Positions 28,032-52,406 of a stretch of 64,000 nucleotides of DNA are shown in pieces (within the stretch, counting starts at the first letter, position 1; the number at the start of each line of letters is the position of its first letter). The stretch spans positions 545,330 to 609,329 of the forward strand of contig JAECRG010000001.1 of NCBI GenBank assembly GCA_015999875.1, written 5' to 3'. The position numbers and the translations under genes were made by a program. A model generated the notes under the pieces. That model made no database searches. It was not told the origin of the DNA and worked only from the letters and a program-made list of their open reading frames with translations. The DNA comes from Candidatus Saccharimonadota bacterium (GTDB taxonomy: Bacteria > Patescibacteriota > Saccharimonadia > Saccharimonadales > Saccharimonadaceae).

Positions 28032-29033
28032 CTAGTTACGGCCGCGATTGACACTCGCGCCTGGTTTGCGATTTTTGCTCTTGCGCACGATCAGCCAAAT
28101 TACTAGTCCGATGACGACGAGCAGCACTACAAGACCTACGATCGCCAAGATGATATAGAGCTGTGGAATCACCCAGAATGATTTAGTGACTTCGATAGTC
28201 TGATTTTTGGTGCCGTAAGTAAATGTAGCAGCTACTTCGTACTTACCAAATTTACCGATGTTTTCAAGAGGCACATCCCAGCGACGAGCGCTATCTGGCA
28301 AGATCATCTCACGAGGAGTCTTCTCGTTGAAATCAGTTTCCTGAATCACTTTGCCGTCTTTTTTGACAGAAACTTTGCCAAACGGCGCTAGCTGAATACC
28401 GCTCTGGCTTGTGAAGCGGAAAGAAGCCTGCAAGTTATCTGGTGTCATGAAGTAGGTCTTACCTTGACCGTTTTGTTGGATGTCGAAATCTGTGAGCGTG
28501 AGCTTTTGCGTCACTTCACCGGGAATAGTCGCGAGGATAATCGACGCTACGCTGGCACTTAGGTTAACTTGCCCGCCGCCATCCGGATTGGTAGGAGCAA
28601 AGCGCACTGCACCGAAGTACCCACCTGGTTTTGCGTCACGAGGCGCATTGAGAGTAACCTCTACAACCTTTGTGCCCTCTGCGGGAATAGTGAAGTCCGC
28701 CAGTGGCGCCATGAAGCGCTTGAGACTGTGTGACTTGGCAAACTCATCAGCTTCAAGAATAAGAGCCGGAGTACCTCGCTCGTCACCAGATACGAAATCG
28801 TTTGCGACGGGTCGCACGCTGATCTCTTCTTTCGTGAGGTTTGTCACGACAGTCTTGATTGTCTTGCTCTCGCCTGGCTTGAGTTCGATGTCGCTGCGGA
28901 CAGGAGATACCTTGAGAGTGTTTGCGGTCGCAGCATGCGCATGCTGCGAATAAAGCGCGGTCGCAAACACAGCCAGTACTGCCGCGGCGACAATAGTTAT
29001 AATTACCCGTACATTAATTTGAGTTCGTTGCAT
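28032..29033 (-). CDS. DUF916-like membrane-anchored Ig-fold protein, copy A
   Basis: 333 residues from the ATG at 29033; the longer frame to 29156 is not used since it hides the signal peptide (residues 10-33, cleavage after HAHA). Two Ig-like domains follow: the first (about 37-160, start NTLKVSPVRSDIELKPGES) resembles DUF916/WxL-interacting-protein peptidoglycan-binding domains; the second covers about 170-285. A transmembrane helix (about 293-318) and a basic tail (KSKNRKPG) anchor it. It is a paralog of the 31415 gene (shared SVASIILATIPGEV-like stretch). A chaperone or anchor role for the neighbouring exported proteins is inferred from the WxL gene pairs of Firmicutes. Confidence 0.8.
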   Translation of the reverse strand: MQRTQINVRVIITIVAAAVLAVFATALYSQHAHAATANTLKVSPVRSDIELKPGESKTIKTVVTNLTKEEISVRPVANDFVSGDERGTPALILEADEFAKSHSLKRFMAPLADFTIPAEGTKVVEVTLNAPRDAKPGGYFGAVRFAPTNPDGGGQVNLSASVASIILATIPGEVTQKLTLTDFDIQQNGQGKTYFMTPDNLQASFRFTSQSGIQLAPFGKVSVKKDGKVIQETDFNEKTPREMILPDSARRWDVPLENIGKFGKYEVAATFTYGTKNQTIEVTKSFWVIPQLYIILAIVGLVVLLVVIGLVIWLIVRKSKNRKPGASVNRGRN

Positions 29034-29113
29034 CAACACACCTTTTGTTTCCCATTTAGCAAATTCTCTTCTAGCATAACAGATATGCTTATGTTTGCCT
29101 ACAGCTTGATAAA

Positions 29114-29140
29114 ATACACCCTCACGATGTGAGGGTGTAT
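29114..29140 (-). terminator. Terminator after exported protein 1
   Basis: ATACACCCTCAC / GTGAGGGTGTAT with a three-base loop and a TTTTAT end on the minus strand, about 20 bases after the stop at 29162. Separates it from the DUF916-like copy A downstream. Confidence 0.85.
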
Positions 29141-29161
29141 GAAATCTGTCATTCAAGCTGA

Positions 29162-30313
29162 CTAGAAAGTACCAGTAGCAATCAGACTTAGGTCTGCAGA
29201 ATAACTACCTGCAATCGTGTTATTATCAGCTTTTGCACCGAAAATAAGTTTCATATTCTTGTATAAAGCAGGTGCTCCATTGGTATTAAGAATACTGTCG
29301 CCGTATACGCTCGTTACACCAGTTAAGTCACCGTCAATATAGTTCATACGGAAGTTACTTGTGTTGTAATTTGTGTTCGCAGCCTGAAATGCTCCCTCAG
29401 AAACAGCTGGGGTGTCTGTACCAGCAGCAAGTTTCACACCGAAAAGTCCGCCTGGAGTTACGGCAGTCACGTCTGCAAGTAGAGATGGCTTGATACCACA
29501 GCCCTCTTCGTTATCTGCAGCACCAGCACGGACAAGCCCGCCACACTCAATCGCGTTGCTCTTGAGTCGAACTACAGCACCGCCCACGGCATTTGTAGAG
29601 ATCTGGGTGAATATATCACCCTCGCTCACTTCATCAGACTGGAGGGCCTTGATGCCATTGCCGATATCTTTACCTAGCTGCAGAGTTGGTGCTGCCAAAG
29701 AAGTAGTGTCGCACTCGTCAGGAATTGCTGCACCAGCTATACAAAACGAAAGTGTTTCAAGTACATCACCAGATACAGAAATACCATCGGTAATAGCAAA
29801 AGCTACTCCACCGCGATCTACAGGAGTACCAATAACCGTACCACTGTCATAGCCTTCTGCTGCCGCAGCGTCGACATACGTAAGGACACGCGCATACACC
29901 GTACCCGCGTCCGTTGGGTTTGTTATGTTAGCAAAGTTAATATTCACTGGCGTACCGGCTGTTATCGCCTTCGTGACGTTGAGACGACTTGCGGTTGTCT
30001 CGCCCGCTACGATTGTGCCATCGCTAGTTGTAGCTGTTGCCACATTGAGTCCGCCTGGAGCTGCACAGGTTACTCCGATAAGTGGGCTATCTGAACAAAA
30101 ATCAATTACAATTGCGCCTGCATTCGCCACCGGAGTGAAAGTTAGGCCATAGCTTACATTTGCAGCTGTTTTTGTTGAGCTACTAAGCTCAAGCGAGCGC
30201 TCTTCGATAGTCGCAGCCGAAGCCAACATCGGCACAAACACCGAAAAAGCCACAAGCAACGCTGCAACGATATAGCGCGATTTATCACTAATAATTCTAA
30301 AGGTAGTATTCAT
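29162..30313 (-). CDS. Exported beta-rich surface protein 1 (FGxxL family)
   Basis: 383 residues from the ATG at 30313 (GAGGAAG seven bases upstream; GTG at 30319 is less likely). A signal peptide (about 13-33, SAA|T) is followed by IEERSLELSSS, the same opening as in the proteins at 32537 and 33726. It has paired Cys (IDFCSDS, GVTCAAP; CIAGAAIPDEC), a GLFGVKLAAGT motif related to the FGINL motif of its paralogs, and a C-terminal strand ending SLIATGTF. No membrane anchor. It is probably secreted and assembled at the cell surface. The family has no name that I know. Confidence 0.75.
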   Translation of the reverse strand: MNTTFRIISDKSRYIVAALLVAFSVFVPMLASAATIEERSLELSSSTKTAANVSYGLTFTPVANAGAIVIDFCSDSPLIGVTCAAPGGLNVATATTSDGTIVAGETTASRLNVTKAITAGTPVNINFANITNPTDAGTVYARVLTYVDAAAAEGYDSGTVIGTPVDRGGVAFAITDGISVSGDVLETLSFCIAGAAIPDECDTTSLAAPTLQLGKDIGNGIKALQSDEVSEGDIFTQISTNAVGGAVVRLKSNAIECGGLVRAGAADNEEGCGIKPSLLADVTAVTPGGLFGVKLAAGTDTPAVSEGAFQAANTNYNTSNFRMNYIDGDLTGVTSVYGDSILNTNGAPALYKNMKLIFGAKADNNTIAGSYSADLSLIATGTF

Positions 30314-30432
30314 ACCCACTCTTCCTCACATCCCTCTTTTTTAAGTTATTTATTTTGTCCAGGAACGTCCTCATTGTAACACGCTCATGCTTAGACATGT
30401 CAAGAAGTTTATAGATTAGTTATCCACATATA

Positions 30433-31365
30433 TTATTTCTTTTTGACATTGTCGCGCTCTTTGAAAAGCTTGTGACGAATAGACACCAGCTGACTACGTC
30501 GCCCAAGCCAGTATGATGGGATGAGTAGTGCAAATGCGAGTATCGTAGGCAGCCATAATATCTTTGTCTGCACTACAGGCTTCGTTTCATCAGTAGCCTG
30601 CTGCTGCGTGCTGCCGTCTACTTGCCCACTCGATACTGCTACTAGTTGCAAAAATGCCGTGACACCGTTTACGTCTGTCACTGTAACATTTATCAGGTAG
30701 ATGCCAGCTTTTTTATAAATGTGCGAGATATCTATCACGCCAGCAAGTGCGACGCTCTTGAGCTCTGGCTTAGTGCCATCACCCCAGTCGATACTAAATG
30801 CATACGGGCCGGTGCCACCAGAGAGTTGCAACGGCCACGTCAACGCCTCACCTGCAGGTGCAGAGCGGCGACCATAGGAGCTGGTAAGCGTAATAAGTTC
30901 ACCGAACGCCGTGAAGTTGGTAGCGTTATAGGTGACGGTGATAATGTTTGAAACAGGTCCCGGCTGACCGAGATCGTCATATACGATCGCACTAATCTGA
31001 TTTGTACCCGCGAAGAGACTAATCTGAAGACTGAAGCTACCGCCCGCGCACATGACAGCGCCTACCATGACATTGTTGTTGTAAATCTGCACCAGCAAAC
31101 CTGTCGGGCAGATACCGCTCACCGTGATAGGCGACGTCGACGTAGAGCTGTTGCCGGGGGTAGTGATGGTTGCACCCTGCGTAGGTGGGGCTTGTGTCTT
31201 AGTGGCCTGCAAACCATACGAACCAGGCTTAGGGTTCGGAACCGGAATTGGTGTCAAAGCACTTGCCTGTTGCACCCCCCACACTAGCACAAACAGCGCC
31301 AGGAGACACGACCCGATAACGATCGAGCGTGTCCACTGTGCGCTGAGTTTGATAGTATGTACCAT
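30433..31365 (-). CDS. Membrane-anchored Ig/PKD-domain surface protein
   Basis: 310 residues. A signal peptide (about 14-36), a Pro/Thr-rich linker, an Ig-like domain (about 66-150, with a Cys pair in ICPTG and VMCAG), then a PKD domain with the typical FSIDWGDGT (about 195-203) and YLINVTVTDVNG, one transmembrane helix (about 270-288) and a basic tail. PKD folds serve protein-protein or carbohydrate contacts at the cell surface. It lies between the DUF916-like copy B and exported protein 1 in the same direction; a scaffold role is inferred. Confidence 0.8.
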   Translation of the reverse strand: MVHTIKLSAQWTRSIVIGSCLLALFVLVWGVQQASALTPIPVPNPKPGSYGLQATKTQAPPTQGATITTPGNSSTSTSPITVSGICPTGLLVQIYNNNVMVGAVMCAGGSFSLQISLFAGTNQISAIVYDDLGQPGPVSNIITVTYNATNFTAFGELITLTSSYGRRSAPAGEALTWPLQLSGGTGPYAFSIDWGDGTKPELKSVALAGVIDISHIYKKAGIYLINVTVTDVNGVTAFLQLVAVSSGQVDGSTQQQATDETKPVVQTKILWLPTILAFALLIPSYWLGRRSQLVSIRHKLFKERDNVKKK

Positions 31366-31414
31366 GCTTGTGCTTATTGTAGCGCGAGAGCGCGAAGTTC
31401 AAAAGTTTTTCGTG

Positions 31415-32464
31415 TTATTTTCTGTGGCTTAATTTCTTGCTCTTGCCAAACTTATTGCGCGCTGAGCTGTATGCTCGGTAGCCGAAGAAGCCGATGACAA
31501 TAAGCGCAAGGATCAGAACTATGATTGCCCATACTGGGAAGTAAATAAACCAGCTAGAGCTCTGTATATCTTGAGTTCGGTTGCCATTCTGGCCGTAGAA
31601 AAGATTAAGGTCAAGTTTATAGAAGCCCGGCCAAAGATCAGAATTGGCACATGCGGATGATTGTGTGCGGCTGCCCTGAAACTCTACTTCAGATGACTCA
31701 AGTTTGAAACATGCAGCGTATGTACGCGTCTGACCGATCAAGGCAAGCGATTGACTAGGGTTAACATCTTGAATAACTCGCTCTTTACCAAACAGCGGCT
31801 TGACAGTAATACTACCGACCGGAGCTTCGGTAACATTACCATTGTTCTTGAGGGTATATGCAACATTTTTTGGGTTCTCTGCCGTGAAATACACATAGCT
31901 AGCAGGCTTCTTACCTTCAACTGGCAAATATGCACCAAATTTCTCAAGCTTGAGCTCTTCTTTCACTTCACCTGGAATATTTACAAAAGCAAGTGTTACA
32001 CCAGATGCGCTCAGACCGACATTACCCTCTTCGGGAGTACCCGAAGAATAGACAATAGCGCTATAGTAGCTACCAGCACCATGGTTGGCAGGTATCGCTA
32101 CGTTCATATCGATAGTAGTACTCTGCTTTGGAGCAACAGAAACTGTTTTCGGAACGGTCAAAAATGGCTTGAGCGACCATGTCGTTTGAGGTGCATCTTC
32201 TGCAAGCATTAGCTTGGGCGTACCGCCCTCGTCAGTGTATGTAAAATCCACTACACGAAGAGTTAAATCTAGCTTTTCAGCCTCGTCTAGATTGCGTATG
32301 ACTAATGTATCTTTAACTGACTTGCCGGGCTCTACTGTATAGCTTTTCTTAGGTGTAATACTAAGTGCCGCAGACGTAGCGGCAGAGGCCTGTTGTACGG
32401 GCAGTAGCGTTACACCTAACACGACCGCGCACGCGGTCAATAAAATGCTTTTCAAGCGTTTCAT
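31415..32464 (-). CDS. DUF916-like membrane-anchored Ig-fold protein, copy B
   Basis: 349 residues with a signal peptide (about 5-28, cleavage after ASA), the DUF916-like domain (about 33-155, ALSITPKKSYTVEPGKS), the shared NIPGEVKEELKLEKF stretch (compare TIPGEVTQKLTLTDF in copy A), a second Ig-like domain with one Cys pair, a transmembrane helix (about 305-328) and a Lys/Arg-rich tail. Copies A and B share the same order of parts. It is between the PKD protein and exported protein 2. Confidence 0.8.
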   Translation of the reverse strand: MKRLKSILLTACAVVLGVTLLPVQQASAATSAALSITPKKSYTVEPGKSVKDTLVIRNLDEAEKLDLTLRVVDFTYTDEGGTPKLMLAEDAPQTTWSLKPFLTVPKTVSVAPKQSTTIDMNVAIPANHGAGSYYSAIVYSSGTPEEGNVGLSASGVTLAFVNIPGEVKEELKLEKFGAYLPVEGKKPASYVYFTAENPKNVAYTLKNNGNVTEAPVGSITVKPLFGKERVIQDVNPSQSLALIGQTRTYAACFKLESSEVEFQGSRTQSSACANSDLWPGFYKLDLNLFYGQNGNRTQDIQSSSWFIYFPVWAIIVLILALIVIGFFGYRAYSSARNKFGKSKKLSHRK

Positions 32465-32536
32465 GTGTTTATTGTTCCCTCACATTTACTTTTTAAATAT
32501 AAGCGTATTGTACCATTAGCACTACTCGAAGGCAAT

Positions 32537-33631
32537 CTAAAAACGGCCGCTTGCGACGTAGTTGATAGATGTGGTGTAAATGCCTGGTCGCAAGCTTGGG
32601 CTCGAATTAAGAATGTAACTTACTGTAAACTTTTTCATAAGACTGACATTTGGTGAATACGCAATCACATCACCAGATACATATTTGTATCTGTTTGGCT
32701 GACTGTAATCGGCATTCGCAACGGCATTCGCCCACTCACCCTCTGGGTTCTTACCGACGGCAGGCGACGCATTTTGCACCAAGTTTATACCGAATTGATT
32801 CGTACCAGGCCTACTCTCGGTGGGCGATGTAAGTCCGTTAATTACACTCGCACCTGCCGCAGGAGGACCCCCATTTGCAGTAATCGCAAATCCTCCGGAT
32901 GCGTTCGTGCCCACCGCCATCTGCGATTGTGCAAGTAGCGTGTCTTGCGGACTCAGATCGCCCATGTCAGTGTAATAATTATCATTCGTCTCTCCGCAGT
33001 TATACTCCACTTCTTCTGCCAGGCAGAATATAAGCATTGGTGGCACCTGTGTTTGCAGGATCACACCAGATTGAATCTGGCCGCGCACCGAGCCAAAGTC
33101 TACCTGCGGACCTGAGGCGTCTGTCGTGGTGTGACTACGTAGCCGAATTGAAAAAGCAGGTTCCGTGGCAGTAGGATTTCTAATATTCGTAAACGTATAC
33201 GATGACATTGCATCGGTAATAGGTGCTGACAAGCGCGAGAGAACGAGATGATTCGGTGAGCGTACAGATATAGCAAAACCGGTCTCGCCAAGCTGATCAT
33301 TTAACACAGCACCAGACACGTCTAAGCCGGCTGGTGGCACACATGGATGGTAAGGTATAGGGTCGTTACAAAAAAGCATGTCTACCGAACCCACGGCTTG
33401 CGGGCTCATGTAGCGAAAAGAGACTGTGTAGTCTGTAGTGACGCCTGGTTCGTTGTTGCGAATATAGAGACTGCGCTCCTGAAAGCGCATATCAGCAGAC
33501 GCCGGAAACACAAACACAAAAAGAGCCAACACAAGTGCAAATAACTCAAGCCATGGATACATCCACGGATATATGTGCACATGAAACCGAAACAACTTAT
33601 GCTGCATGCATATCATTGTACTAGATACCAC
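32537..33631 (-). CDS. Exported beta-rich surface protein 2 (FGxxL family)
   Basis: 364 residues from a GTG start at 33631 (ATGs at 33616 and 33607 are equally possible). A long signal peptide (hydrophobic LELFALVLALFVFVF, cleavage after ASA) is followed by FQERSLYIRNNEPG, aligned with the paralogs. It has four Cys in two pairs (DMLFCND/HPCVPP and IFCLAEEVEYNCG). The core motif is GTNQFGINLVQNASPAVG, and it ends TTSINYVASGRF. No anchor. It starts a unit with copy B. Function unknown; see the family finding. Confidence 0.75.
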   Translation of the reverse strand: MVSSTMICMQHKLFRFHVHIYPWMYPWLELFALVLALFVFVFPASADMRFQERSLYIRNNEPGVTTDYTVSFRYMSPQAVGSVDMLFCNDPIPYHPCVPPAGLDVSGAVLNDQLGETGFAISVRSPNHLVLSRLSAPITDAMSSYTFTNIRNPTATEPAFSIRLRSHTTTDASGPQVDFGSVRGQIQSGVILQTQVPPMLIFCLAEEVEYNCGETNDNYYTDMGDLSPQDTLLAQSQMAVGTNASGGFAITANGGPPAAGASVINGLTSPTESRPGTNQFGINLVQNASPAVGKNPEGEWANAVANADYSQPNRYKYVSGDVIAYSPNVSLMKKFTVSYILNSSPSLRPGIYTTSINYVASGRF

Positions 33632-33654
33632 TCACAAAGCGTAGCAGAATACAA

Positions 33655-33682
33655 AACAACCGACCTCTAGGGGTCGGTTGTT
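33655..33682 (-). terminator. Terminator after exported protein 3
   Basis: AACAACCGACC / GGTCGGTTGTT around a short TCTAGG-type loop, with T-rich flank on the minus strand; follows the stop at 33726. Confidence 0.8.
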
Positions 33683-33725
33683 ATACTCTACTGCACTATG
33701 CAGCTCTTACTACGTAAGGCTATAT

Positions 33726-35264
33726 CTAGTACTGTGGAGCTGCAAGATAGTTAATCTTGGTTGTGTATACACCAGCTGGGGTATCCGCAGCGATGTTACC
33801 TACGTAGCGCATCTTAGCTGTTGCGCAAGATAGGACGCCATCGGTATTCTGTGCAATTTGCGCAGGAACCTGCATGCTGTCTTCGTCGAAAGCAAATTCA
33901 GCATCGATTGTTTCACCCTGAACACCTTGACCGATATTACCACTTCCGCCAGCGTATGAAGCAGTCTTTACGAGTGGATCTATCGAAGGAAGAGAGTACG
34001 GGCTATCTGCAACCGCAACCTCAGCCAAGAAAGATGAAGACACTTCACTTTGCATCTCTGCATCATCTACAAATCCTAGGCCAAACTGTTCTGTACCTGG
34101 ATTACTCAATGTAGCTGTTGGATCAAGTGGGCGAATGAAGTCGCCTACTGTGTTGCGCAGTGTATCACCTGAATAATACACAGTTGCACCGCCAGATGAG
34201 TTAGAGCTTAGTCGCCAATATGAATTAACGTCCCATGCTCGACCTGTTTCAAGTGAGTACTCAGCATTTGGGTTACCTAGATTCAGTCGATTGGCATCAA
34301 CAACCTGTATTGGGTCGCAAGTACCGTTACGAACCGATCCACCAGGACCATCAAGCACATCAGTGTCACGGTTGTGCACGCCTACAGAGAAAGCCATGGT
34401 TTCCAATACCTTTGTAGTAATGTGAATTGAATCGGTCATGACATTCGCTACAGTCACACCACCGTCGATTACTGTGTGGTCAGTTTGAACGTTTGGAGTA
34501 GGGTCGTTATGTGTACCAATTAGACTAGTGTCGCTACTATAAGTATTGATCTTCACGAAAAACGCATCACTACCAGGGTTGGTAATGTATGTTGTTTCTG
34601 ATGGACGGAAGATGATCTGAACAAGTTGTCCGTTGTTGATAGTACCGCCATCTTCGTTGACAAGTGTCGCATAGTTATCTTTACCGGATAGGTTGCCGCT
34701 GTGATCATCATCTTCCAGATTATCTGTTGCAAGCGTCCATCCTGTTGAGGTAGCATTGTTAATTCGCACTTCGTATGTACCAGCAGTAGTTCCCTCATTC
34801 CAAGTACCGACGAAGTTAAAGTCACTTCGCTTGTTCGCATGTGCGTTACCAGGACCTTCGTTCGCTTCACGTGCCGTAGGTAGATCGTCACGGGCATCAC
34901 CGGTGTTGTTACCTGGTGACTGGCAATAGCCAGCTGCTTGTGTACAGTATTGGAGCGAGAAGCCCTTTACCTCTGCGGTGCTACTTACCTTGAAGGTGAA
35001 TGTTTCACCAGTCTTACGACCGTTTGGCCCTGAGCCAGCCGGAGCATAGTTTTGAAGTGCGGCATTTGGCGCGTCATATGAGTTGCCTGAACCGTCCATA
35101 TCCTGCCAACCAGGTGCAGACGAACTCAGAAGCAAAGAACGCTCCGTAAGTGGGTTCAATGCGTCCGCGAAAACCGGTGCCGTAGGTACTATCGCTGCTG
35201 CAAAAACAGCAACTGCCGCACCAAGCGCCGACCCGCGTCGGACGATCGACTTGAGTGTATACAT
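33726..35264 (-). CDS. Exported beta-rich surface protein 3 (FGxxL family)
   Basis: 512 residues from the ATG at 35264 (AAGGAG ten bases upstream; the longer frame to 35336 has no support). A basic signal peptide (about 8-34) is cleaved near VFADA. The mature protein opens LTERSLLLSSSAPG, then an N-terminal beta domain with Cys in FSLQYCTQAAGYCQS, a long Asn/Asp/Gly/Thr-rich mid-part and a C-terminal domain with GTEQFGLGFVDD and the end TTKINYLAAPQY. It is the largest paralog. A strong promoter lies upstream and a terminator after it, so it is expressed alone and probably at a high level. Confidence 0.8.
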   Translation of the reverse strand: MYTLKSIVRRGSALGAAVAVFAAAIVPTAPVFADALNPLTERSLLLSSSAPGWQDMDGSGNSYDAPNAALQNYAPAGSGPNGRKTGETFTFKVSSTAEVKGFSLQYCTQAAGYCQSPGNNTGDARDDLPTAREANEGPGNAHANKRSDFNFVGTWNEGTTAGTYEVRINNATSTGWTLATDNLEDDDHSGNLSGKDNYATLVNEDGGTINNGQLVQIIFRPSETTYITNPGSDAFFVKINTYSSDTSLIGTHNDPTPNVQTDHTVIDGGVTVANVMTDSIHITTKVLETMAFSVGVHNRDTDVLDGPGGSVRNGTCDPIQVVDANRLNLGNPNAEYSLETGRAWDVNSYWRLSSNSSGGATVYYSGDTLRNTVGDFIRPLDPTATLSNPGTEQFGLGFVDDAEMQSEVSSSFLAEVAVADSPYSLPSIDPLVKTASYAGGSGNIGQGVQGETIDAEFAFDEDSMQVPAQIAQNTDGVLSCATAKMRYVGNIAADTPAGVYTTKINYLAAPQY

Positions 35265-35326
35265 GTAGATGTATCTCCTTGTGTTTGTTTTAATATGTGG
35301 TGGCCCTTTTAAGGGGGTACACGCGC

Positions 35327-35356
35327 ATTTTATCATTAGCGGTATGGTCGGCGCAA
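35327..35356 (-). promoter_or_regulatory. Promoter for exported protein 3
   Basis: Minus strand TTGCGC, 18 bases, TAAAAT with TGA before the -10 (extended -10). Predicted start near 35320, leader of about 55 bases containing a small CCCTT/AAGGG hairpin ahead of the AAGGAG site. Confidence 0.6.
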
Positions 35357-35421
35357 GAGATTTCTACAACAATCCTTATACGCAGCACACCCCTTGTTGT
35401 GTACAACCTGTGCATAACTCA

Positions 35422-36171
35422 CTAAAAGATAGGGATCACAACTGCCGAGAAATCGCCCGAGAAGTGACCTGCTGGTGTTTTGTTTGAAACATTGATGATC
35501 ATGCTGACTGTATAGTCTGTGCGGCCAGACTCTTTGGTACTACTTGCCACTACATCACCACTATTGAACTTAAAGAGATTTGGCGTGCGATAGGCTGGCT
35601 CAGCCTCACCGAAACTTAGAGCGGTAGAGGGTACTTGCACTGGGCTTGCTCCGACGTTTGGCGTGCTGTTTGCGGCAAGATTGATACCAAACTGCTCAGT
35701 GCCGGGTTGCGATGCTGTCGGCACAGCTGGAGCATGGAGTGTGTGATCGCCATATTTGGGTGGGTCACCGACGATCTGGAGCTGATAGCCATTACTTAGG
35801 TAGCTACGAACTTTGATACCCATCGTTTTCGTGGCTGTCTTGTTTGTCTCGAGGGTACCTAGGTTTGACTCGCCTGGCTCCACTATCACTTCAAGAGTGG
35901 GTTCTTCTGGCGTGAGGCTGCCAAAATTAGCAGAGATATTGTCGCTAGCGCTCTGACCTACCGCCATATCACCGATAGTGGCCTTGGCACAATACTGCCC
36001 CGAACATGCCTCCTCTGCTGAGCTGCTCCCAAATGTACTTTCGGTCATCTGATAATTTGGTGACTCGGACACTGCAGATGTCGCGAATACCTCATGAGCT
36101 GTGCCGCCCACAGCAAACGCCACCAAAAGCAGCACTGCCGGTACACCTCTCCATGATAGTCGTGTTCGCAT
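35422..36171 (-). CDS. Exported beta-rich surface protein 4 (FGxxL family)
   Basis: 249 residues. Signal peptide about 1-30. The mature part has one Cys pair (EEACSGQYCAKA), an Ig-like section with EPGESNLGTLETNKTA, and the shared C-terminal domain: NGYQLQIVGDPP, GTEQFGINLAANSTPNVGASP, then the end DFSAVVIPIF. It is a shorter paralog of the proteins at 29162, 32537 and 33726, carrying mainly the C-terminal domain, which argues that this domain is the conserved functional unit. It is the first gene of the minus-strand cluster, divergent from the 36275 gene. Confidence 0.75.
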   Translation of the reverse strand: MRTRLSWRGVPAVLLLVAFAVGGTAHEVFATSAVSESPNYQMTESTFGSSSAEEACSGQYCAKATIGDMAVGQSASDNISANFGSLTPEEPTLEVIVEPGESNLGTLETNKTATKTMGIKVRSYLSNGYQLQIVGDPPKYGDHTLHAPAVPTASQPGTEQFGINLAANSTPNVGASPVQVPSTALSFGEAEPAYRTPNLFKFNSGDVVASSTKESGRTDYTVSMIINVSNKTPAGHFSGDFSAVVIPIF

Positions 36172-36274: not shown

Positions 36275-37300
36275 ATGGAACCAGATAAAAACACTAGTGC
36301 GCCCGCTGGGGACGACAAGCCAAAAGACGATCAGCAGGCTCCTGCTGACGCACTAAGTCGCACGCCTGAGGACCTCGAAGAAGAGCAGGTCGCGCAAAAA
36401 GCCGCGTCTGGTGACACCTCCCTAGAACCTACAGAAAAAAAGGTCTCGCCTATCAAGCGCTTCTTGCGCCGTATCAATGTGTATTTTTTGATGTTCCTCC
36501 TACTACTGGTAATAGTGGGTGTCATCTCTACTGTAGACTATCTCAACAACCAAAAAGCATCCGTCGCGCCAGCTGAGCCAGATATCGCAAGTCAGAAGCT
36601 CACGGAAGACGCGCTCAAACAACTTGCCAATACCGATGCATCCGTAGGAAGTGCTTCGCAGACATTGACTATACAGGGCAACGCAGTAATCGAAGGCCAG
36701 ACACTCATGCGTGGCAATCTCAACGTAGCCGGCAATTTCCAAAGTGGTGGCCGCATACAAGGTCCAAGCTTGACCATATCGGGCGAAAGCAATCTGGGTG
36801 CAACACAGATCAACAGCCTGCAAGTCGCGACAAACGCCGCAGTACAAGGCAGCACCACACTGCGAGATCTCAGTGTAGCTGGATCTGCAACTTTTTCTGG
36901 ACCCGTAACCGCTTCACAACTCACAGTATCTCGTCTCGTCCTAAGTGGTAACTCTGTGATAGAAATACCAAATCATCTTAGTTTCACTGGTGCTCCAGTG
37001 GGCAGAGGTGCTACAGGACCAGCGCTCGGTGGTGGCGGCTCAGCATCCGTGAGTGGCTCCGACGCAGCAGGAACCGTCAACATCAACACTGGCAACGGGC
37101 CTAGCGCAGGCTGCTTCGTACGTATCAATTTCAGCCAAGCCTACACCACCCAGCCGCGAGTAATCGTCAGCCCTATCGGCCCTGGCGCAGGCCTCTCCTC
37201 GTACTATGTAGACCGCAACAACAGCGGATTCAGCATCTGTGCAGCATCTCCTCCACCTGGCAACCAGGCGTTTGGATTTGATTACTTCGTCACTGGCTAA
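36275..37300 (+). CDS. Bitopic membrane protein with bactofilin/tail-fibre-like extracellular domain
   Basis: 341 residues. A charged, disordered cytoplasmic N-terminus (about 1-65, Asp/Glu/Lys/Ala-rich), one transmembrane helix (about 70-90), a helical linker, then a beta-helix-like stretch (about 130-235) of short repeats such as NAVIEGQTLMRGNLNVAG and SNLGATQINSLQVAT, the kind found in bactofilins and phage tail spikes. A C-terminal domain (about 265-341) with a Cys pair (GCFVRINFSQ, SICAASP) and an aromatic end resembles a receptor-binding tip. It faces the F1-like operon tail to tail (overlap of four bases with 37297). Confidence 0.75.
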   Translation: MEPDKNTSAPAGDDKPKDDQQAPADALSRTPEDLEEEQVAQKAASGDTSLEPTEKKVSPIKRFLRRINVYFLMFLLLLVIVGVISTVDYLNNQKASVAPAEPDIASQKLTEDALKQLANTDASVGSASQTLTIQGNAVIEGQTLMRGNLNVAGNFQSGGRIQGPSLTISGESNLGATQINSLQVATNAAVQGSTTLRDLSVAGSATFSGPVTASQLTVSRLVLSGNSVIEIPNHLSFTGAPVGRGATGPALGGGGSASVSGSDAAGTVNINTGNGPSAGCFVRINFSQAYTTQPRVIVSPIGPGAGLSSYYVDRNNSGFSICAASPPPGNQAFGFDYFVTG

Positions 37301-37607
37301 ACGTCCATAAAGATAACGGCACGATTGGCTTTTACGTGCATAAGCGCACGATGAATCTTGATCGTCTTTTCACCCTCTGGCGCTTTGACCACAAGATTGC
37401 AGGGCACAAGCATACAGAGAAAATTGTGATGCTTGGGCAGAATGTCAAAAGGGCCAGTGTCGTTTGTAGCACTGACGCTATACGCATTACCTTCATAGTA
37501 CACCTTAAACGGTGCGTATACTTTGACCTCCATAGTAGGCTTGCCGCCATGGCTTTTTGCTTGCTCCGGCTCGCTAGTAGGCACTGGCTGTACTACTTCG
37601 CCTGCCA

Positions 37608-37608
<1 letters not shown>
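37297..37608 (-). CDS. atpC: F1-ATPase epsilon-like subunit, short form
   Basis: 103 residues. A disordered N-terminus of about 25 residues is followed by an epsilon-type beta-sandwich: MEVKVYAPFKVYYEGNAYSV, the loop TGPFDILPKHHNFLCML that matches the G-x-x-x-I-L-P-x-H segment of epsilon subunits, and the end HRALMHVKANRAVIFMDV. The C-terminal helical hairpin (inhibitory in normal epsilon, about 50 residues) is absent. Start is GTG at 37608 overlapping the beta stop; an in-frame ATG at 37533 begins exactly at the domain and is an alternative. Last gene of the F1-like operon. Confidence 0.8.
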
Positions 37609-39951
<2,343 letters not shown>

Positions 39952-39955
<4 letters not shown>

Positions 39956-41535
39956 TTGGACTTCTCCTCTTTTGCTGCGTTTTCTGCGTCAGATTTGGCT
40001 TGTGAGTTTGCTTCTGCGGCCGCCTCGTTTTCGGCCTCCTCAGTTGCACGTTGCTTTTCGGCTTCAGCTTTTGCCGCTTTTTCGATTGCCGCCTTCTTGA
40101 CTTCATCGACCGTCATGACCTCAGATTTGAGCGCAGCAGAAAGCTCATCAAAGTTACCGTTCATGTCTTTATCTTCTTGTAACTTTTCTGCATAGCCATG
40201 TACTTTTTCTTTCAAAGCAGCTACGTCGATGATTTCTTCCGGGCTGCTATCTAGCACGATGCTCATGATAAACTGCTGCTCTGCGAAGCTATAGATTTCA
40301 CCAATACCCTGGTTCATAAGCTTAAAAAGCACCTTACCTTTGTCGTAATCGGACTGCGCCTGCGGACTAAGCTCGGTACCGAAATGAGCGTACTCTTCAG
40401 CTGTGCGATACCCGGACAGTGTGCGGTTGAGCTGATCTGCCAGCCCTTTTTGACGTTTGTTTTGTCCAACGCCACCCACGCGGGTCACCGAAAGACCCGT
40501 GCTCACAGCTGGACGCATCGTATCTTTAAATATCTGGCCGTCCAAAATCCACTGGCCGTCCGTAATAGACATGATGTTGGTAGGTAAGTAGGCAGTGATG
40601 TCGCCACCTGGCGCATACACTATAGGCAAAAGTGTCTGGCTTGCATGATTTACCTCTGTCTTTCCTCCACGCTCCAGCAAGCTCGAGTGCGTATAAAACA
40701 TGTCACCTGGATACGAGTCACGGCCCGGAGAAACGCCGGCGATGAGTGATATTTCACGATAGGCCTGAGCGTGAGCTGTGAGATCGTCGTATATCATGAG
40801 CGTGTCCATGTTGAGCTTCTGCCAGAAATACTCCCCGTGTGCCGCCCCCACATAGGGCACTAAATAGGTCAAGATAAGTGACTCAAACGAGTTTGATACG
40901 ATAACAATTGCTTTTTTGAGTGCACCGTTTTTTTCCAAGTTATTAACAAGTTCCGCGACGTCACGCTGACGTTTGGCAATAAGCACGTACACGACGGTGA
41001 TATCGGTGTTCTTCTGATTGATTGCGACCTGTGCCGCAAGCGCAGTCTTGCCCACCTTGCTGTCGCCAAGCATAGCCATACGCTGCCCTCTGGCAAGTGA
41101 ATACTCGAGATCTAGGATTGTCACACCTGTCTCTACGGGCGTATCTAGTAGCTCACGCTCGTAGAGGGCAGGTGCTTTATGAAATACGTCCCACTCTTGG
41201 TCGGGCTCAATAGGGCCTTTGCCATCGATCGGTTCACCAAACACGTTGATAACGCGACCCACGAAGTTTTTGCCGACCGGCGTCATAATATCGCGCTTTT
41301 CGATAACGCAGACCTTGCCTACATGCAGTGGAGAGGGATCAAGCTTCATCACCACTACATGATCATCGAGCACTTCGTGCACATAGCCACGCGTATCATT
41401 ATCAAATCGCACTGTCGCATGCACATTGGCCGGCTGCAAGCCCCTGACGCTCACCATAAAAGAATCAATACCGATAATCTCGCCGACAGGGTTGCCGTCG
41501 CTGACTAGCTTTTCAAATATTTTTCCGTCAGCCAC
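39952..41535 (-). CDS. atpA: F1-like ATPase alpha subunit with charged tail
   Basis: 527 residues. It has the alpha-type nucleotide site, but the P-loop is GDSKVGKT (157-164) rather than GDRQTGKT. The Arg finger segment is kept (VTRVGGVGQN), as is the alpha-type SYPGDMFY. After the C-terminal helical domain comes a tail of about 50 residues of Ala/Glu/Lys/Gln heptads (from about 478), likely a long exposed helix. Usual alpha is about 500-510. It overlaps delta by eight bases and gamma by four bases. It is clearly an alpha, not beta, but far from the respiratory type. Confidence 0.92.
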
Positions 41536-42046
41536 GATATGCCTCCAGCTCTTTGATCAGCACATCATGACTACCGGCAAGCTTCGCCTTCAAACTAAAA
41601 TCATGCACATGATTTGGCGTGCGAAGATGTACTCCCGCTACAAGTCCAGGCTGCAGACCAACTGAGATGACCGCCTGAGGATGCACTGAAGTGCGAAGCC
41701 ATTGCACAAGCTGTTGCAAGCTTTCTATATCTGCACTCACAGCAAATGTCATATGAACGATAGGTACTTTATCCTTGAGCGCCCGTAGCTGCTTAATCAA
41801 ACTTGTACGGCCCTTGCTATCGTTTGCTGTGAGCTTGTTTTGAATCAAAAAATCCCTAAGCGTCTCCGAAAGTACGGGCACGAATGTAGCCTCAGTAGCA
41901 CCGACTGTTTTGGCTCGCACATTTGCTGCGTTGAGATCGTTGTCGAGTTGCTCCATTTCCGTAACCATGCGCGACACGTCAAGCTTGCTCACCAAACTAG
42001 GGGGCAGAATAAATTCACTATAGCTCTTTGCAGATGACTCGTTCAT
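41528..42046 (-). CDS. atpH: F1-like ATPase delta-like (OSCP) subunit
   Basis: 172 residues, family length about 175-180. An N-terminal helical part is followed by the delta/OSCP-type end: VHMTFAVSADIESLQQLVQWL, then the strand AVISVGLQPGLVAGVHLRTP, which stands for the usual V-D-x-x-L-I-G-G-x-x-I segment, and DFSLKAKLAGSHDVLIKEL. Similarity is weak but position between the coiled-coil gene and alpha is that of atpH. It would link the peripheral stalk to the top of alpha3beta3. Its ends overlap both neighbours. Confidence 0.7.
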   Translation of the reverse strand: MNESSAKSYSEFILPPSLVSKLDVSRMVTEMEQLDNDLNAANVRAKTVGATEATFVPVLSETLRDFLIQNKLTANDSKGRTSLIKQLRALKDKVPIVHMTFAVSADIESLQQLVQWLRTSVHPQAVISVGLQPGLVAGVHLRTPNHVHDFSLKAKLAGSHDVLIKELEAYRG

Positions 42047-43918: not shown

Positions 43919-44002
43919 TGGCACCACACATCTAGGCTAAATAAACACTTTTATATCAAAAAACAGATATAGAAAGCAAACAATCATTTAGATGTGGTGC
44001 CA
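43919..44002 (+). repeat. Inverted repeat in the leader of the giant surface gene
   Basis: Arms TGGCACCACACATCTA (43919-43934) and TAGATGTGGTGCCA (43989-44002) pair over 14 bp with a two-base bulge (CA), around a 54-base A/T-rich loop. The second arm contains the ATG at 43992. In RNA this hairpin could hide that start codon, and the second possible ATG at 44031 would stay free. Confidence 0.65.
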
Positions 44003-47000
44003 CCTCCCCACTGGTTTTAAACGACGTACGATGCTGCACTATGTAGCACTTGCTTCACTATTTATTGCGTTTTTCACAACGCTATTCTTAGCTAGTACCA
44101 CTCACGCTGCGCCCGGCATCAACCAAACCCTCAGCTTCCAAGGACGCCTACTCAACTCTAGTGGTGGCGTCGTACCCGACGGTCACTACAACTTGCAATT
44201 TAAGATTTATCAAGACGGCACCGGTACAGCCAGTAACAACCCCGGCGGGACACTCAAATGGACCGAAACATACATCAACAACAACGGAACCAATGGTGTT
44301 CTGGTTAAAAACGGCCTCTTCTCCGTCAATCTTGGCTCAGTAACTCCATTCGGCGCCAGTGTAGACTGGAACCAAGATACTATCTGGCTTTCTATGAACG
44401 TGGCAGGGTCAGCTCCGGCATGCACCACCTATGGCACCACTCCATGTGCAGCAGATGGCGAAATGCTCCCTATGAAGCGCATGACAGCCACACCATTTGC
44501 CATCAACTCCGCACAGCTCGGCGGCAAAACAGCCGACAACTTCATACAGCTTTCACAAGGTGTCCAAGAAGATGCAGCCAGTGGCGCGGCAAGTATTAAC
44601 ATCAACAAGACCGGCACTGGGGGTGAGTTCCTCAAATTACAAGGTAATAACGAAAACATGCTAGTCATCAATAGTGGTGGAGATATCCAATTTGGTAATC
44701 AGGCAAATCACTACATCAACATAGCATCAGCAGATGCCGACACGCACGGAAATAATATCGTTATTGTGAGTGGCACAGGCGGCAGTGGAGCTGGCAGCAA
44801 TGGAGGTGATACGGTTGTACTAGGTGGAGAGGGCGGCGGAACAAATGGTACTGGCGGATCCGTATTTCTACAAGGGGGCAACGGTACCGGAAATGCAGAC
44901 GACGGAAGTGTCTACATAGGGACCGCAAACAATGCAACCGTCGAAATTGGCAACTCGGCTCTAGCTAGTGGCACCCAGACAGTCAAAATAGGCGCCAACA
45001 ATGCTGGCGGCACAACTAACATCACGATCGGCGCTGGATCCGGGGCTTCTGGCGGTAACACTCGAATACAGTCAAAAGAGAATACGACTATCGCCACCGA
45101 TGGTGTAGACCGAGCAACATTCGATAACGAAGGCACCCTAACCCTTGGTAACGGCGTTTCAAGCAACACTCCTACCGACTTCAAGATACAAGGTACTGCA
45201 AGTTCAGCTGGTGGCGTACGTGGTGGCGACCTGACAGTACAAGGTGGCAACGCAACCACCGGCAACACCGATGGCGGCAATCTTCATCTTAGTGGCGGAA
45301 CAGCGTCAGGTACTGGTAGCGCCGGCCTAGTGGTTATCAATACACCAACATATGCCATGGCCTCTTCGCAAACCTCGGCGACCAGTACAAATGTCACACA
45401 AGCAAACATCGATTCGTTTGGCGTCATCACACTCGACGCAAGTGCGCCAAACGTCAGCTACACCCTGGGTGCTCCGTCACTAGGTGCTGGTGCTGGGGGT
45501 CGAATCATCTACGTCACTGCAGCGAACAGCTCGCAAGATTTTATACTCCGCGCAAATGTTGGTGCTGGTGCAGGAGCCGAACAAAACGTACCAATGAAGC
45601 AAAATACTACTGCAACGATGGTGTGGACAGGCAGCCTCTGGACTGTGGCTGGTTCGGCAAGTGGTGGCGGATTGCAGTCAACATACAACAATACCGTACA
45701 AGCCACTGGAGAAGCCGATATCGTAACATCCAATACACCTAGTGGTAATGGCCTTGTTATTCGTGACAGTGCGACCAACCCCACTAGCAACACAGTGTTG
45801 TCCGTACAATCTTCATCATCTGCACCGATACTCTCAGCGAGCGGCGCAACAGCTAATGAGCTCGCCTCTAACCCTGGCGCAGAAACAGCAGGTGGATCTG
45901 CAAGCACATTCCCGGCGAATACATGGTCAAACCGCGGTATCGATGCAGGAGGACCAGGCTTGTGGGACGCTGCGGTCACGCGGCATACTACTGCCGGCAA
46001 CAATATCCAAAGCGGAAATGCTTCAGTGAAGGTAACTACCGAAAATGGCTGGACAGGTGCGTCAAATAAACTCACTACAGCGCTCACACCCGGCGTCTCC
46101 TATAATGTATCCATGAAAGTTCGCGCCGACAGCACTCCATTCTCTCACCTGAGCGTGTACCTATTCCCTATAGGCGAGGAAGATAACGACGACTGGGTGC
46201 TCTGTACAGAGTCGATTGCCGTCACTTCAAGTGCATGGACAAATGTAAACTGCACGTTCCAGGCACCAGCGACCGTGACTAGCCAAAATAAGATATTCGT
46301 TACAAGTCAAGACGACATGGGGACATTCTATATCGATGACTTCTCGGTGGCCCGTACAACACAGACAGCCAATGTACGAGTTGGTAGCGGCGACGTAGGC
46401 GAAGAAGACTCGACCCTCTTTACGCTCGATAAAAGTGCAACTCGACCAACAGATGGCAACGACCCCGCATTGCTCGGCAGTATGTATTACGACACGACAC
46501 TCGGCAAAGTCCAGTGTTTCGAAGCTGAAGGCTGGGGCGACTGCGGCACGCCACCAGATACCTTCATCACACTAAGTCCAGAATTTGCAGGCGGAATCGT
46601 AACGGGCAGTGGCACTGGTACTATGACTACAGATATGTGCTCCGATCAACTAAATGTCAATGACGGTAGCTCAGCTCAACCGACTGTCTGCGGCGTCAAG
46701 GAAACCTACAACTATTACAAGTGGACTACAACGTCAGAATCCAACCAATACAAGGTTATCTATGTAAACTACCAACTACCTCAAAACTTTAAACAATTCA
46801 TCTCAGGCTCCACGTCAGTAATGGGACGAACCGACAGCACAAGTTCGACAGCTGCGTACCAATTCTACCGCAACGACCCTGTAGATGGGCTAATCGCCTG
46901 CAGCGTAGAACAGCCACTTTCAAACGGCGCCCAGACACTCTGGCAAAAAGGCACTCCTGGTGGTGTAGCTGATCCAGCAACTTGTGGATTTGAAGCTGGA

Positions 47001-47090
47001 GATACACTTGTCGCCAAGATTGTACTCGGATCCAGAAGCAACGCAAACTCCTATATCAGCAATCTCAGCTTTGCACACAGTATCAAGTAG
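43992..47090 (+). CDS. Giant exported tail-fibre-like protein with carbohydrate-binding-like domain
   Basis: 1032 residues (ATG 43992, or 44031 just before the signal peptide LFIAFFTTLFLASTTHA). Domains in order: a beta domain starting INQTLSFQGRLLNSSGG (about 43-160), typical of exported fibre N-termini; the adaptor segment LGGKTADNFIQL (about 172-183) as in phage tail fibres; a Gly/Asn/Thr-rich beta-helix of short repeats (about 210-450); a beta domain; a jelly-roll domain like family 4/9/22 carbohydrate-binding modules (about 625-780: NPGAETAGG to FYIDDFSVA); and a C-terminal domain (about 850-1032). No membrane anchor. Probably a surface adhesin of a host-bound cell (inference). Confidence 0.8.
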   Translation: MWCHLPTGFKRRTMLHYVALASLFIAFFTTLFLASTTHAAPGINQTLSFQGRLLNSSGGVVPDGHYNLQFKIYQDGTGTASNNPGGTLKWTETYINNNGTNGVLVKNGLFSVNLGSVTPFGASVDWNQDTIWLSMNVAGSAPACTTYGTTPCAADGEMLPMKRMTATPFAINSAQLGGKTADNFIQLSQGVQEDAASGAASININKTGTGGEFLKLQGNNENMLVINSGGDIQFGNQANHYINIASADADTHGNNIVIVSGTGGSGAGSNGGDTVVLGGEGGGTNGTGGSVFLQGGNGTGNADDGSVYIGTANNATVEIGNSALASGTQTVKIGANNAGGTTNITIGAGSGASGGNTRIQSKENTTIATDGVDRATFDNEGTLTLGNGVSSNTPTDFKIQGTASSAGGVRGGDLTVQGGNATTGNTDGGNLHLSGGTASGTGSAGLVVINTPTYAMASSQTSATSTNVTQANIDSFGVITLDASAPNVSYTLGAPSLGAGAGGRIIYVTAANSSQDFILRANVGAGAGAEQNVPMKQNTTATMVWTGSLWTVAGSASGGGLQSTYNNTVQATGEADIVTSNTPSGNGLVIRDSATNPTSNTVLSVQSSSSAPILSASGATANELASNPGAETAGGSASTFPANTWSNRGIDAGGPGLWDAAVTRHTTAGNNIQSGNASVKVTTENGWTGASNKLTTALTPGVSYNVSMKVRADSTPFSHLSVYLFPIGEEDNDDWVLCTESIAVTSSAWTNVNCTFQAPATVTSQNKIFVTSQDDMGTFYIDDFSVARTTQTANVRVGSGDVGEEDSTLFTLDKSATRPTDGNDPALLGSMYYDTTLGKVQCFEAEGWGDCGTPPDTFITLSPEFAGGIVTGSGTGTMTTDMCSDQLNVNDGSSAQPTVCGVKETYNYYKWTTTSESNQYKVIYVNYQLPQNFKQFISGSTSVMGRTDSTSSTAAYQFYRNDPVDGLIACSVEQPLSNGAQTLWQKGTPGGVADPATCGFEAGDTLVAKIVLGSRSNANSYISNLSFAHSIK

Positions 47091-51710: not shown

Positions 51711-51968
51711 ATGCTTTATAGTGTATATCATTTTTATCTTAAGCATAAAAAGTAAGTATAAAAGTCTCTAAACTAACAGAGTTAAGGTGCTCTAGAATCA
51801 AGAAACTAACAAAGGCAAAAAGACCAGTCTAGGAAACTGATCTTGAACTTTTTGAGTGTCTATCTTGGCTCTCGCTAATGGACGTACTTCGAAACATGAA
51901 GACTATACCCACTATCAATACGGTTGAGAATTTACAAACGAACTATAGCTGGGGTAAAGTATAAATAT

Positions 51969-52406
51969 ATGAATGACAGAATTGCGCATATTAAGAAGTA
52001 TGGCTGGCCGAGAAATAGCTCGACCTCTCAAGGCGGCGGGCTTTCCACATCGCAATATGGAGGAATGTCGACGTCTCAATATGGAGGCGCTTCAACATCT
52101 CAATATGGAGGTATGTCTAGTTCTCAATATGGAGGAATGTCGACATCGCAATATGGTGGCCTATCTACTTCGCAATATGGCGGTTTATCTACTTCGCAAT
52201 ATGGCGGTTTATCTACTTCACAGTACGGAGGTCTTTCCACGGCACAGTACGGAGGTCTGTCTACCTCTCAAGGTGGAGGACTATCAACATCATCTAGCAA
52301 TGTCTATCACAGCAACATCCCCCCTAGGCCAATTTATCTTGAAGAGCTGAAAAAGCGCGGTTATCTTGCAGAGTATGAACTATTAAAACGTGCTTGGAAT
52401 CTTTAG
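51969..52406 (+). CDS. Octapeptide-repeat protein (STSQYGG repeats)
   Basis: 145 residues from ATG 51969 (a TTG start at 51924 is possible but unsupported). N-terminal MNDRIAHIKKYGWPRN, then 11 units of eight residues, consensus LSTSQYGG (first and last units have QGGG), a short spacer, and the C-terminal NIPPRPIYLEELKKRGYLAEYELLKRAWNL-like helix, given here in parts: PPRPIYLEELKKRG, YLAEYELLKRAW. The repeats are low-complexity Gly/Ser/Gln/Tyr, like prion-like or elastin-like linkers. No signal peptide. The conserved ends suggest folded modules joined by a flexible linker. Function unknown. Confidence 0.7.
   Translation: MNDRIAHIKKYGWPRNSSTSQGGGLSTSQYGGMSTSQYGGASTSQYGGMSSSQYGGMSTSQYGGLSTSQYGGLSTSQYGGLSTSQYGGLSTAQYGGLSTSQGGGLSTSSSNVYHSNIPPRPIYLEELKKRGYLAEYELLKRAWNL
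52017..52280 (+). repeat. Tandem 24-base repeats inside the octapeptide-repeat gene
   Basis: Eleven in-frame copies of 24 bases, consensus near TCTACTTCGCAATATGGCGGTT, with mostly third-position differences; three adjacent copies (about 52150-52220) are almost identical, suggesting recent expansion. Confidence 0.9.

Follow-up and report, generated by a model that had tools for sequence, protein, structure and literature searches.

Host attachment by Saccharibacteria and other Patescibacteria is an open question, for which the focus so far has been on type IV pili. The described systems closest to the locus reported here are the WxL clusters of Bacillota, chaperone-usher pili, TasA filaments and archaeal threads, and the Pam pilus of CPR bacteria. 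For WxL clusters, insertion of an unstructured hairpin of the DUF916 domain into the WxL domain as a strand has been predicted with AlphaFold (PMC10599100). In archaic chaperones, a cleft binds the carboxylate of the pilin's C-terminal Phe (PMC4654587). In a monoderm, strands intercalate to form TasA filaments, for which TapA is the chaperone/nucleator (PMC10151520), and archaeal threads use donor-strand complementation through an assembly pathway that is not established (PMC9715654). The Pam pilus has recently been named in NCBIfam, and its name rests on NCBI's models because no published description of it was found in the open-access literature.

We analyzed a stretch of 64,000 nucleotides from a Candidatus Saccharimonadota bacterium (the window), in which four exported proteins had been singled out from the DNA letters alone as a family with no described counterpart, whose members might complete each other's fold by donor-strand assembly or WxL-type binding. 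The interval concerned (positions 28032-36171) is well supported as a saccharibacterial Pam pilus operon, in the order pamT - pilin - pilin - W2 - pamR - pilin - W1 (Table 1), because the NCBIfam models for PamT, PamR and the Pam pilin C domain match. The kind of pilus is already named; what is added here is its constant pairing with membrane proteins of the WxLIP/PapD type, W1 and W2.

The operon and its four exported proteins

The open reading frames at 29162, 32537, 33726 and 35422, which encode subunits A, B, C and D, are all present on the minus strand, and they form one family, as the original prediction held. Pairwise BLASTP gave E-values of 5e-18 for B and D, 4e-11 for A and B (over nearly the full length), 5e-4 for A and C and 1e-3 for C and D, with the A-D pair alone being weak. 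A profile of the C-terminal region, run with 170-240 residues, recovered exactly these four proteins in the 1.04 Mb genome. With the same profile, more than 70 further members came up in 27 of 60 relatives, mostly as runs of two to five, and E-values of the family profile reach 1e-58 in relatives.

The shared features that had been listed for the family were borne out to different degrees. The proteins end as claimed in GTF, GRF, PQY and PIF (B in GRF and C in PQY), and F or Y is the last residue in 196 of the 199 family ORFs from 66 loci. Signal-type N-termini without an anchor are found by hydropathy in most members. The start ERSLxLSS, claimed for three of the four, occurs without change in A (ERSLELSS) and in C (ERSLLLSS), while B reads ERSLYIRN; it is the first strand of the N-terminal domain in A, B and C, a domain that D lacks. 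The Cys pair of the N-terminal domain is common to A, B and C, that of the C-terminal domain is confined to A and B, and the pair of D is of a different kind. QFGINL, from the proposed motif GTxQFGINL, is exact in B and D and varied in C (QFGLGF) and A (LFGVKL).

The claim that no described family has this set falls, because the proteins match the profiles of a known pilin family (NF058581, NF058579, NF058578), the outcome that the prediction itself had named as counting against it. The models come from NCBIfam release 20.0 (June 2026). Subunit D matched NF058579 (CPR_pilus_PamT) at 6e-94 and 314 bits (cut-off 240), and the protein at 30433 matched NF058578 (PamR) at 2e-114 and 381 bits (cut-off 300) and the PKD model of Pfam (PF00801) at 1.6e-5. 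Against NF058581 (CPR_Pam_pilin_C, cut-off 55), D scored 163.8 bits, B 153.4 (4e-45), C 64.1 (1.5e-17) and A 28.6 (1e-6), the last being below the cut-off. Pfam gave a convincing match for none of the four exported proteins. The adjacent NCBIfam numbers NF058577 and NF058580, considered as more Pam models, proved unrelated.

Table 1. Positions in the window of the operon, of the domains discussed and of the divergent neighbor.
Feature	Position	Strand	Description
pamT (subunit D, 249 aa)	35422..36171	minus	signal peptide and single pilin C-type domain; NF058579
Subunit C, 536 aa	33726..35336	minus	N-terminal domain and Pam pilin C domain; NF058581
Subunit B, 364 aa	32537..33631	minus	two-domain Pam pilin; NF058581
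N-terminal Ig-like domain of B	33062..33493	minus	AF2 residues 1-144; ERSL strand and first Cys pair
C-terminal pilin domain of B	32540..33049	minus	NQFGINL motif, aromatic C-terminus
W2, 349 aa	31415..32464	minus	WxLIP/chaperone-like; two Ig-like domains between a signal peptide and a C-terminal TM helix with basic tail
Candidate donor strand: F-G hairpin in domain 1 of W2	31976..32074	minus	model residues 102-134
PamR, 310 aa	30433..31365	minus	signal peptide, Ig/PKD domains, C-terminal TM; NF058578
Subunit A, 385 aa	29162..30319	minus	divergent two-domain pilin; NF058581 below cut-off and BLASTP to B
W1, partner of A, a membrane protein like W2 (WxLIP/chaperone-like)	28032..29156	minus	PF06030 3e-6; true start likely the ATG at 29033
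Gene for a bactofilin-like membrane protein, divergent from pamT	36275..37300	plus	PF04519 4e-5, below cut-off

The AF2 model of subunit B (pLDDT 94.8) has two domains. Matches in the PDB for the N-terminal domain were YcnI (Z 10.2), BslA (Z 8.7) and the pilins SpaD (Z 8.4) and EbpB (Z 8.0). The C-terminal domain matched the cryo-EM entry TLP-1a (9ikj) with Z 8.2 over 133 residues and the pilin domain of CfaE, a strand-complemented pilin, with Z 7.2 over 120 residues, moderate values in the range of 7-8 that the structure-search tool grades as common. DSSP assigns seven strands to this domain in the model, and the domain may therefore be complete alone, which would speak against strand donation.

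A sequence relationship between the pilin C-terminal domain and the WxL domain was not detectable in profile-profile comparison (P 0.13), and PF13731 (WxL) had zero matches in the genome at E 10. WxL homology had appeared with 24 sequences (P 0.0037) and was dropped when 182 sequences gave the value above. WxL was absent among the PDB matches listed for the B model, a list which the N-terminal domain dominates and which therefore excludes nothing. A PDB sequence search with the pilin profiles returned antibody matches only, by chance.

W1 and W2 and their pairing with pilin genes

W1 and W2 are remote homologues of the WxL-interacting protein (WxLIP) of Firmicutes. Against PF06030 (WxLIP_PGBD), W1 scored 27.7 bits (3e-6), just above the cut-off of 27.3, and W2 20.9 bits (4e-4), below it; the model was matched at E 0.01 or better by 66 of 82 members of the W family. 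No NCBIfam model matched either protein. Profile-profile comparison of W with Firmicutes WxLIP gave P 9e-15, spanning both Ig domains. The AF2 model of W2 (pLDDT 93) contains two Ig-like domains and a C-terminal helix, and its top PDB matches were the WxLIP of E. faecium (9i1y), alone and WxL-bound (Z 14.4 and 14.3). Next, among other PapD-like domains, came the chaperones CfaA (10.6), CupB2 (10.5) and CsuC (10.1), in alignments of 187-199 residues. The WxLIP motif NQIDKxxxYFDLK was not found near the N-terminus of W, where the W profile reads LxISPxRxxxxI.

A C-terminal TM helix is present by hydropathy in 86 of 89 W members and is followed by a short basic tail in the examples displayed. By the positive-inside rule, helix and tail argue for anchoring in the producer cell's own membrane. 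In contrast, insertion into the host membrane has been proposed for WxLIP (PMC10599100).

The pairing of W with pilins was followed through 66 Saccharibacteria loci (65 and the window), where the genes mostly run pamT - pilin(s) - W - pamR. Pilin, W and PamR occur together in 62 of the 66, the cluster opens with pamT in most relatives, and the extra pilin - W pair is found in the window's own clade. In all 85 testable cases, that is, W genes with a cluster gene upstream, a pilin gene lies directly 5' of W, with a median gap of 58 nt. The adjacency holds across the phylum. For example, in 20 loci chosen around pilin matches in other Patescibacteria, where W genes were detected with a profile built from Saccharibacteria only, a W gene lies directly 3' of the pilin gene in 18, and one of the two exceptions is at a contig end. 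The Pam pilin domain was found at 1e-4 in 95 of 380 sampled genomes of the phylum (27 above the cut-off) and in none of 14 control genomes. A complete operon is present in TM7i (L065), which we take to be a cultured strain. A Pfam match to SCPU at the locus of a related genome (E 3.5) was set aside.

Two more loci in the window's genome show the pairing as well, with a W gene beside small secreted proteins that have a similar strand at their end. L120 (G000:C2, about 90-92 kb) encodes three secreted proteins in tandem, all about 200 aa long, whose pilin-like C-terminal strand ends in TYTATTN; a 303-aa W-type membrane protein comes after them. At L121:6328-7741, near dnaK, a third W-type gene (290 aa) adjoins the gene of a 185-aa secreted protein on the opposite strand.

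The bactofilin-like gene has a relative in 49 of the 65 other loci, nearly always divergent and typically separated from the first pilin gene by about 100 bp. Its product has one N-terminal TM segment and is a candidate additional component of the Pam system. Other genes of the window were noted in passing. ATP synthase genes (37297-42046) adjoin the Pam cluster, a neighborhood kept in about 40 other Saccharibacteria loci. An exported glycine-rich protein of 1032 aa (43992-47090) weakly matches models of adhesive fibre and biofilm proteins, and a small protein (51924-52406) consists of STSQYGG-type repeats.

Proposed assembly and alternative readings

We consider it fairly probable that the operon builds a pilus without an usher, in which Ig-like subunits are held by the membrane-tethered chaperone W through strand donation. 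The four family members would be fibre subunits built of Ig-like domains, which, as their signal peptides imply, would cross the membrane unfolded via Sec. W1 and W2, two-domain proteins of the WxLIP/PapD type whose C-terminal helix tethers them to the membrane of the cell itself, would each catch, at the translocon exit, the product of the pilin gene directly 5' of their own. Domain 1 of W would use its F-G hairpin strand to complete the pilin's C-terminal Ig-like domain, and W would also seat the pilin's aromatic C-terminus. W might then release the pilin by strand exchange into the fibre as it grows, or might remain as the fibre's membrane anchor. The fibre may have an adhesive role in episymbiosis.

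The candidate donor strand was located from conservation and from the W2 model. Conservation across the W family is highest in the F strand and the F-G hairpin, with the top 12-residue windows starting at positions 94-103. In V120-x-L122-x-A124-x-126, the four named positions are hydrophobic in 100, 95, 78 and 73% of the family, and the residues between them are polar or small. Residues 113-124 of W2 have no secondary structure in the monomer model, which leaves V-x-L-x-A-x-V largely unpaired. A hairpin that is conserved, alternating and unpaired looks like a donor strand, and we regard it as a putative one for the pilin. The aromatic C-terminus of nearly all pilins fits, by analogy, a seat like the cleft of archaic chaperones, so the C-terminus may be placed in a cleft of W. 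R218 and Y253 are invariant in the W family and recall the residues with which chaperones of the usher pathway anchor the subunit carboxylate (Arg in domain 1, Tyr and Arg in domain 2), and Arg109 is present in 52 of 60 members that are not of the W2 type and absent from W2-type proteins. The alignment of W with EcpB was not significant and did not superpose R218 and Y253 on the EcpB anchor residues, and a transfer of those residues to W is not supported.

The idea of donor-strand or WxL-type binding thus fared unevenly. It gains from W1 and W2, which went unmentioned when it was first put forward and which are remote WxLIP homologues near the chaperone fold encoded in the interval itself. It loses in that the pilin C-terminal domain has no WxL sequence link, and strand donation keeps its conditional standing. 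The constant pilin-W pairing nevertheless turns what was a guess into a testable mechanism.

W could also be a fibre anchor and no chaperone. A related reading, unlikely in our judgment, takes W as the membrane anchor of a wall-bound, WxL-like adhesin platform, to which the pilin-like proteins bind stably without forming a long fibre. W is nearest to WxLIP in both fold and sequence, its TM anchor is all but constant (86/89), and the layout mirrors WxL clusters, with a small one-domain protein, larger ones sharing its C-terminal domain, and WxLIP (PMC10599100). However, NCBIfam curators named the family a pilus subunit, the C-terminal domain lacks a sequence link to WxL, and the genome lacks a WxL match. 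In addition, the WxL proteins that were fetched have no free aromatic C-terminus; they end soon after the second W-x-L motif, in Pro-rich tails.

It is improbable that the subunits assemble by themselves through donor-strand exchange, in the style of the TasA filaments and archaeal threads described above, with W serving, for example, in wall attachment or quality control. Those systems provide the precedent, but here each W gene goes with a pilin gene, and in the window's own clade the additional pilin is accompanied by an additional W. Finally, that the four are secreted Ig-like proteins of a generic kind, unrelated to each other and with motifs alike by composition, is refuted and scarcely credible, since, for all the wide recurrence of Ig-like domains and the moderate Z values of the pilin domains, the B-D and A-B BLASTP matches, the profile E-values and the conserved operon order oppose it.

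If the chaperone reading of W is correct, a pilus with its own membrane-tied chaperone would be a further phylum-wide surface system with a testable assembly mechanism. Saccharibacteria are expected to be monoderm, and the operon with its W pair suggests how a fibre could be built without an outer membrane.

Comparison with known systems

The locus resembles TasA/TapA of Bacillus subtilis and the archaeal threads (Saci_0406) in that cells lacking an outer-membrane usher carry Ig-like subunits. It differs in that no WxLIP-type protein is described in those systems and in that their subunits have another architecture.

Chaperone-usher pili (CsuC/CsuA/B, EcpB/EcpA, CfaA/CfaE) share the two-Ig-domain fold of the chaperone, a chaperone gene beside the pilin gene, and a pilin with an aromatic last residue (Phe152 of CsuA/B). 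However, W is membrane-anchored and has no significant sequence similarity to their chaperones, and inspection of the window genes found no usher among them.

With the WxL clusters and WxLIP (DUF916-DUF3324) of Bacillota, the likeness extends to sequence. Both domains of W are homologous to those of WxLIP, the C-terminal TM helix is shared, subunit genes adjoin the WxLIP gene, and small and large proteins have a common C-terminal domain. The differences are the lack of W-x-L motifs or a WxL match, the free aromatic C-terminus, the presence of PamR, and the other phylum.

The Pam pilus of CPR bacteria is the closest, as PamT, PamR and two two-domain pilins above the curated cut-off are encoded here in one operon. 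Subunit A is below the cut-off, and the W proteins have no NCBIfam model. If the proposed assembly holds, it would link three systems that have been studied separately: WxL clusters, chaperone-usher pili and Pam pili. We suggest, tentatively and with more doubt than for the locus itself, that Patescibacteria build usher-less pili with a membrane-tethered WxLIP/PapD-type chaperone, by strand donation to each pilin's Ig fold and then strand exchange, and that WxL-WxLIP binding in Bacillota and the chaperone-usher pathway of diderms are two branches of one subunit-chaperone principle.
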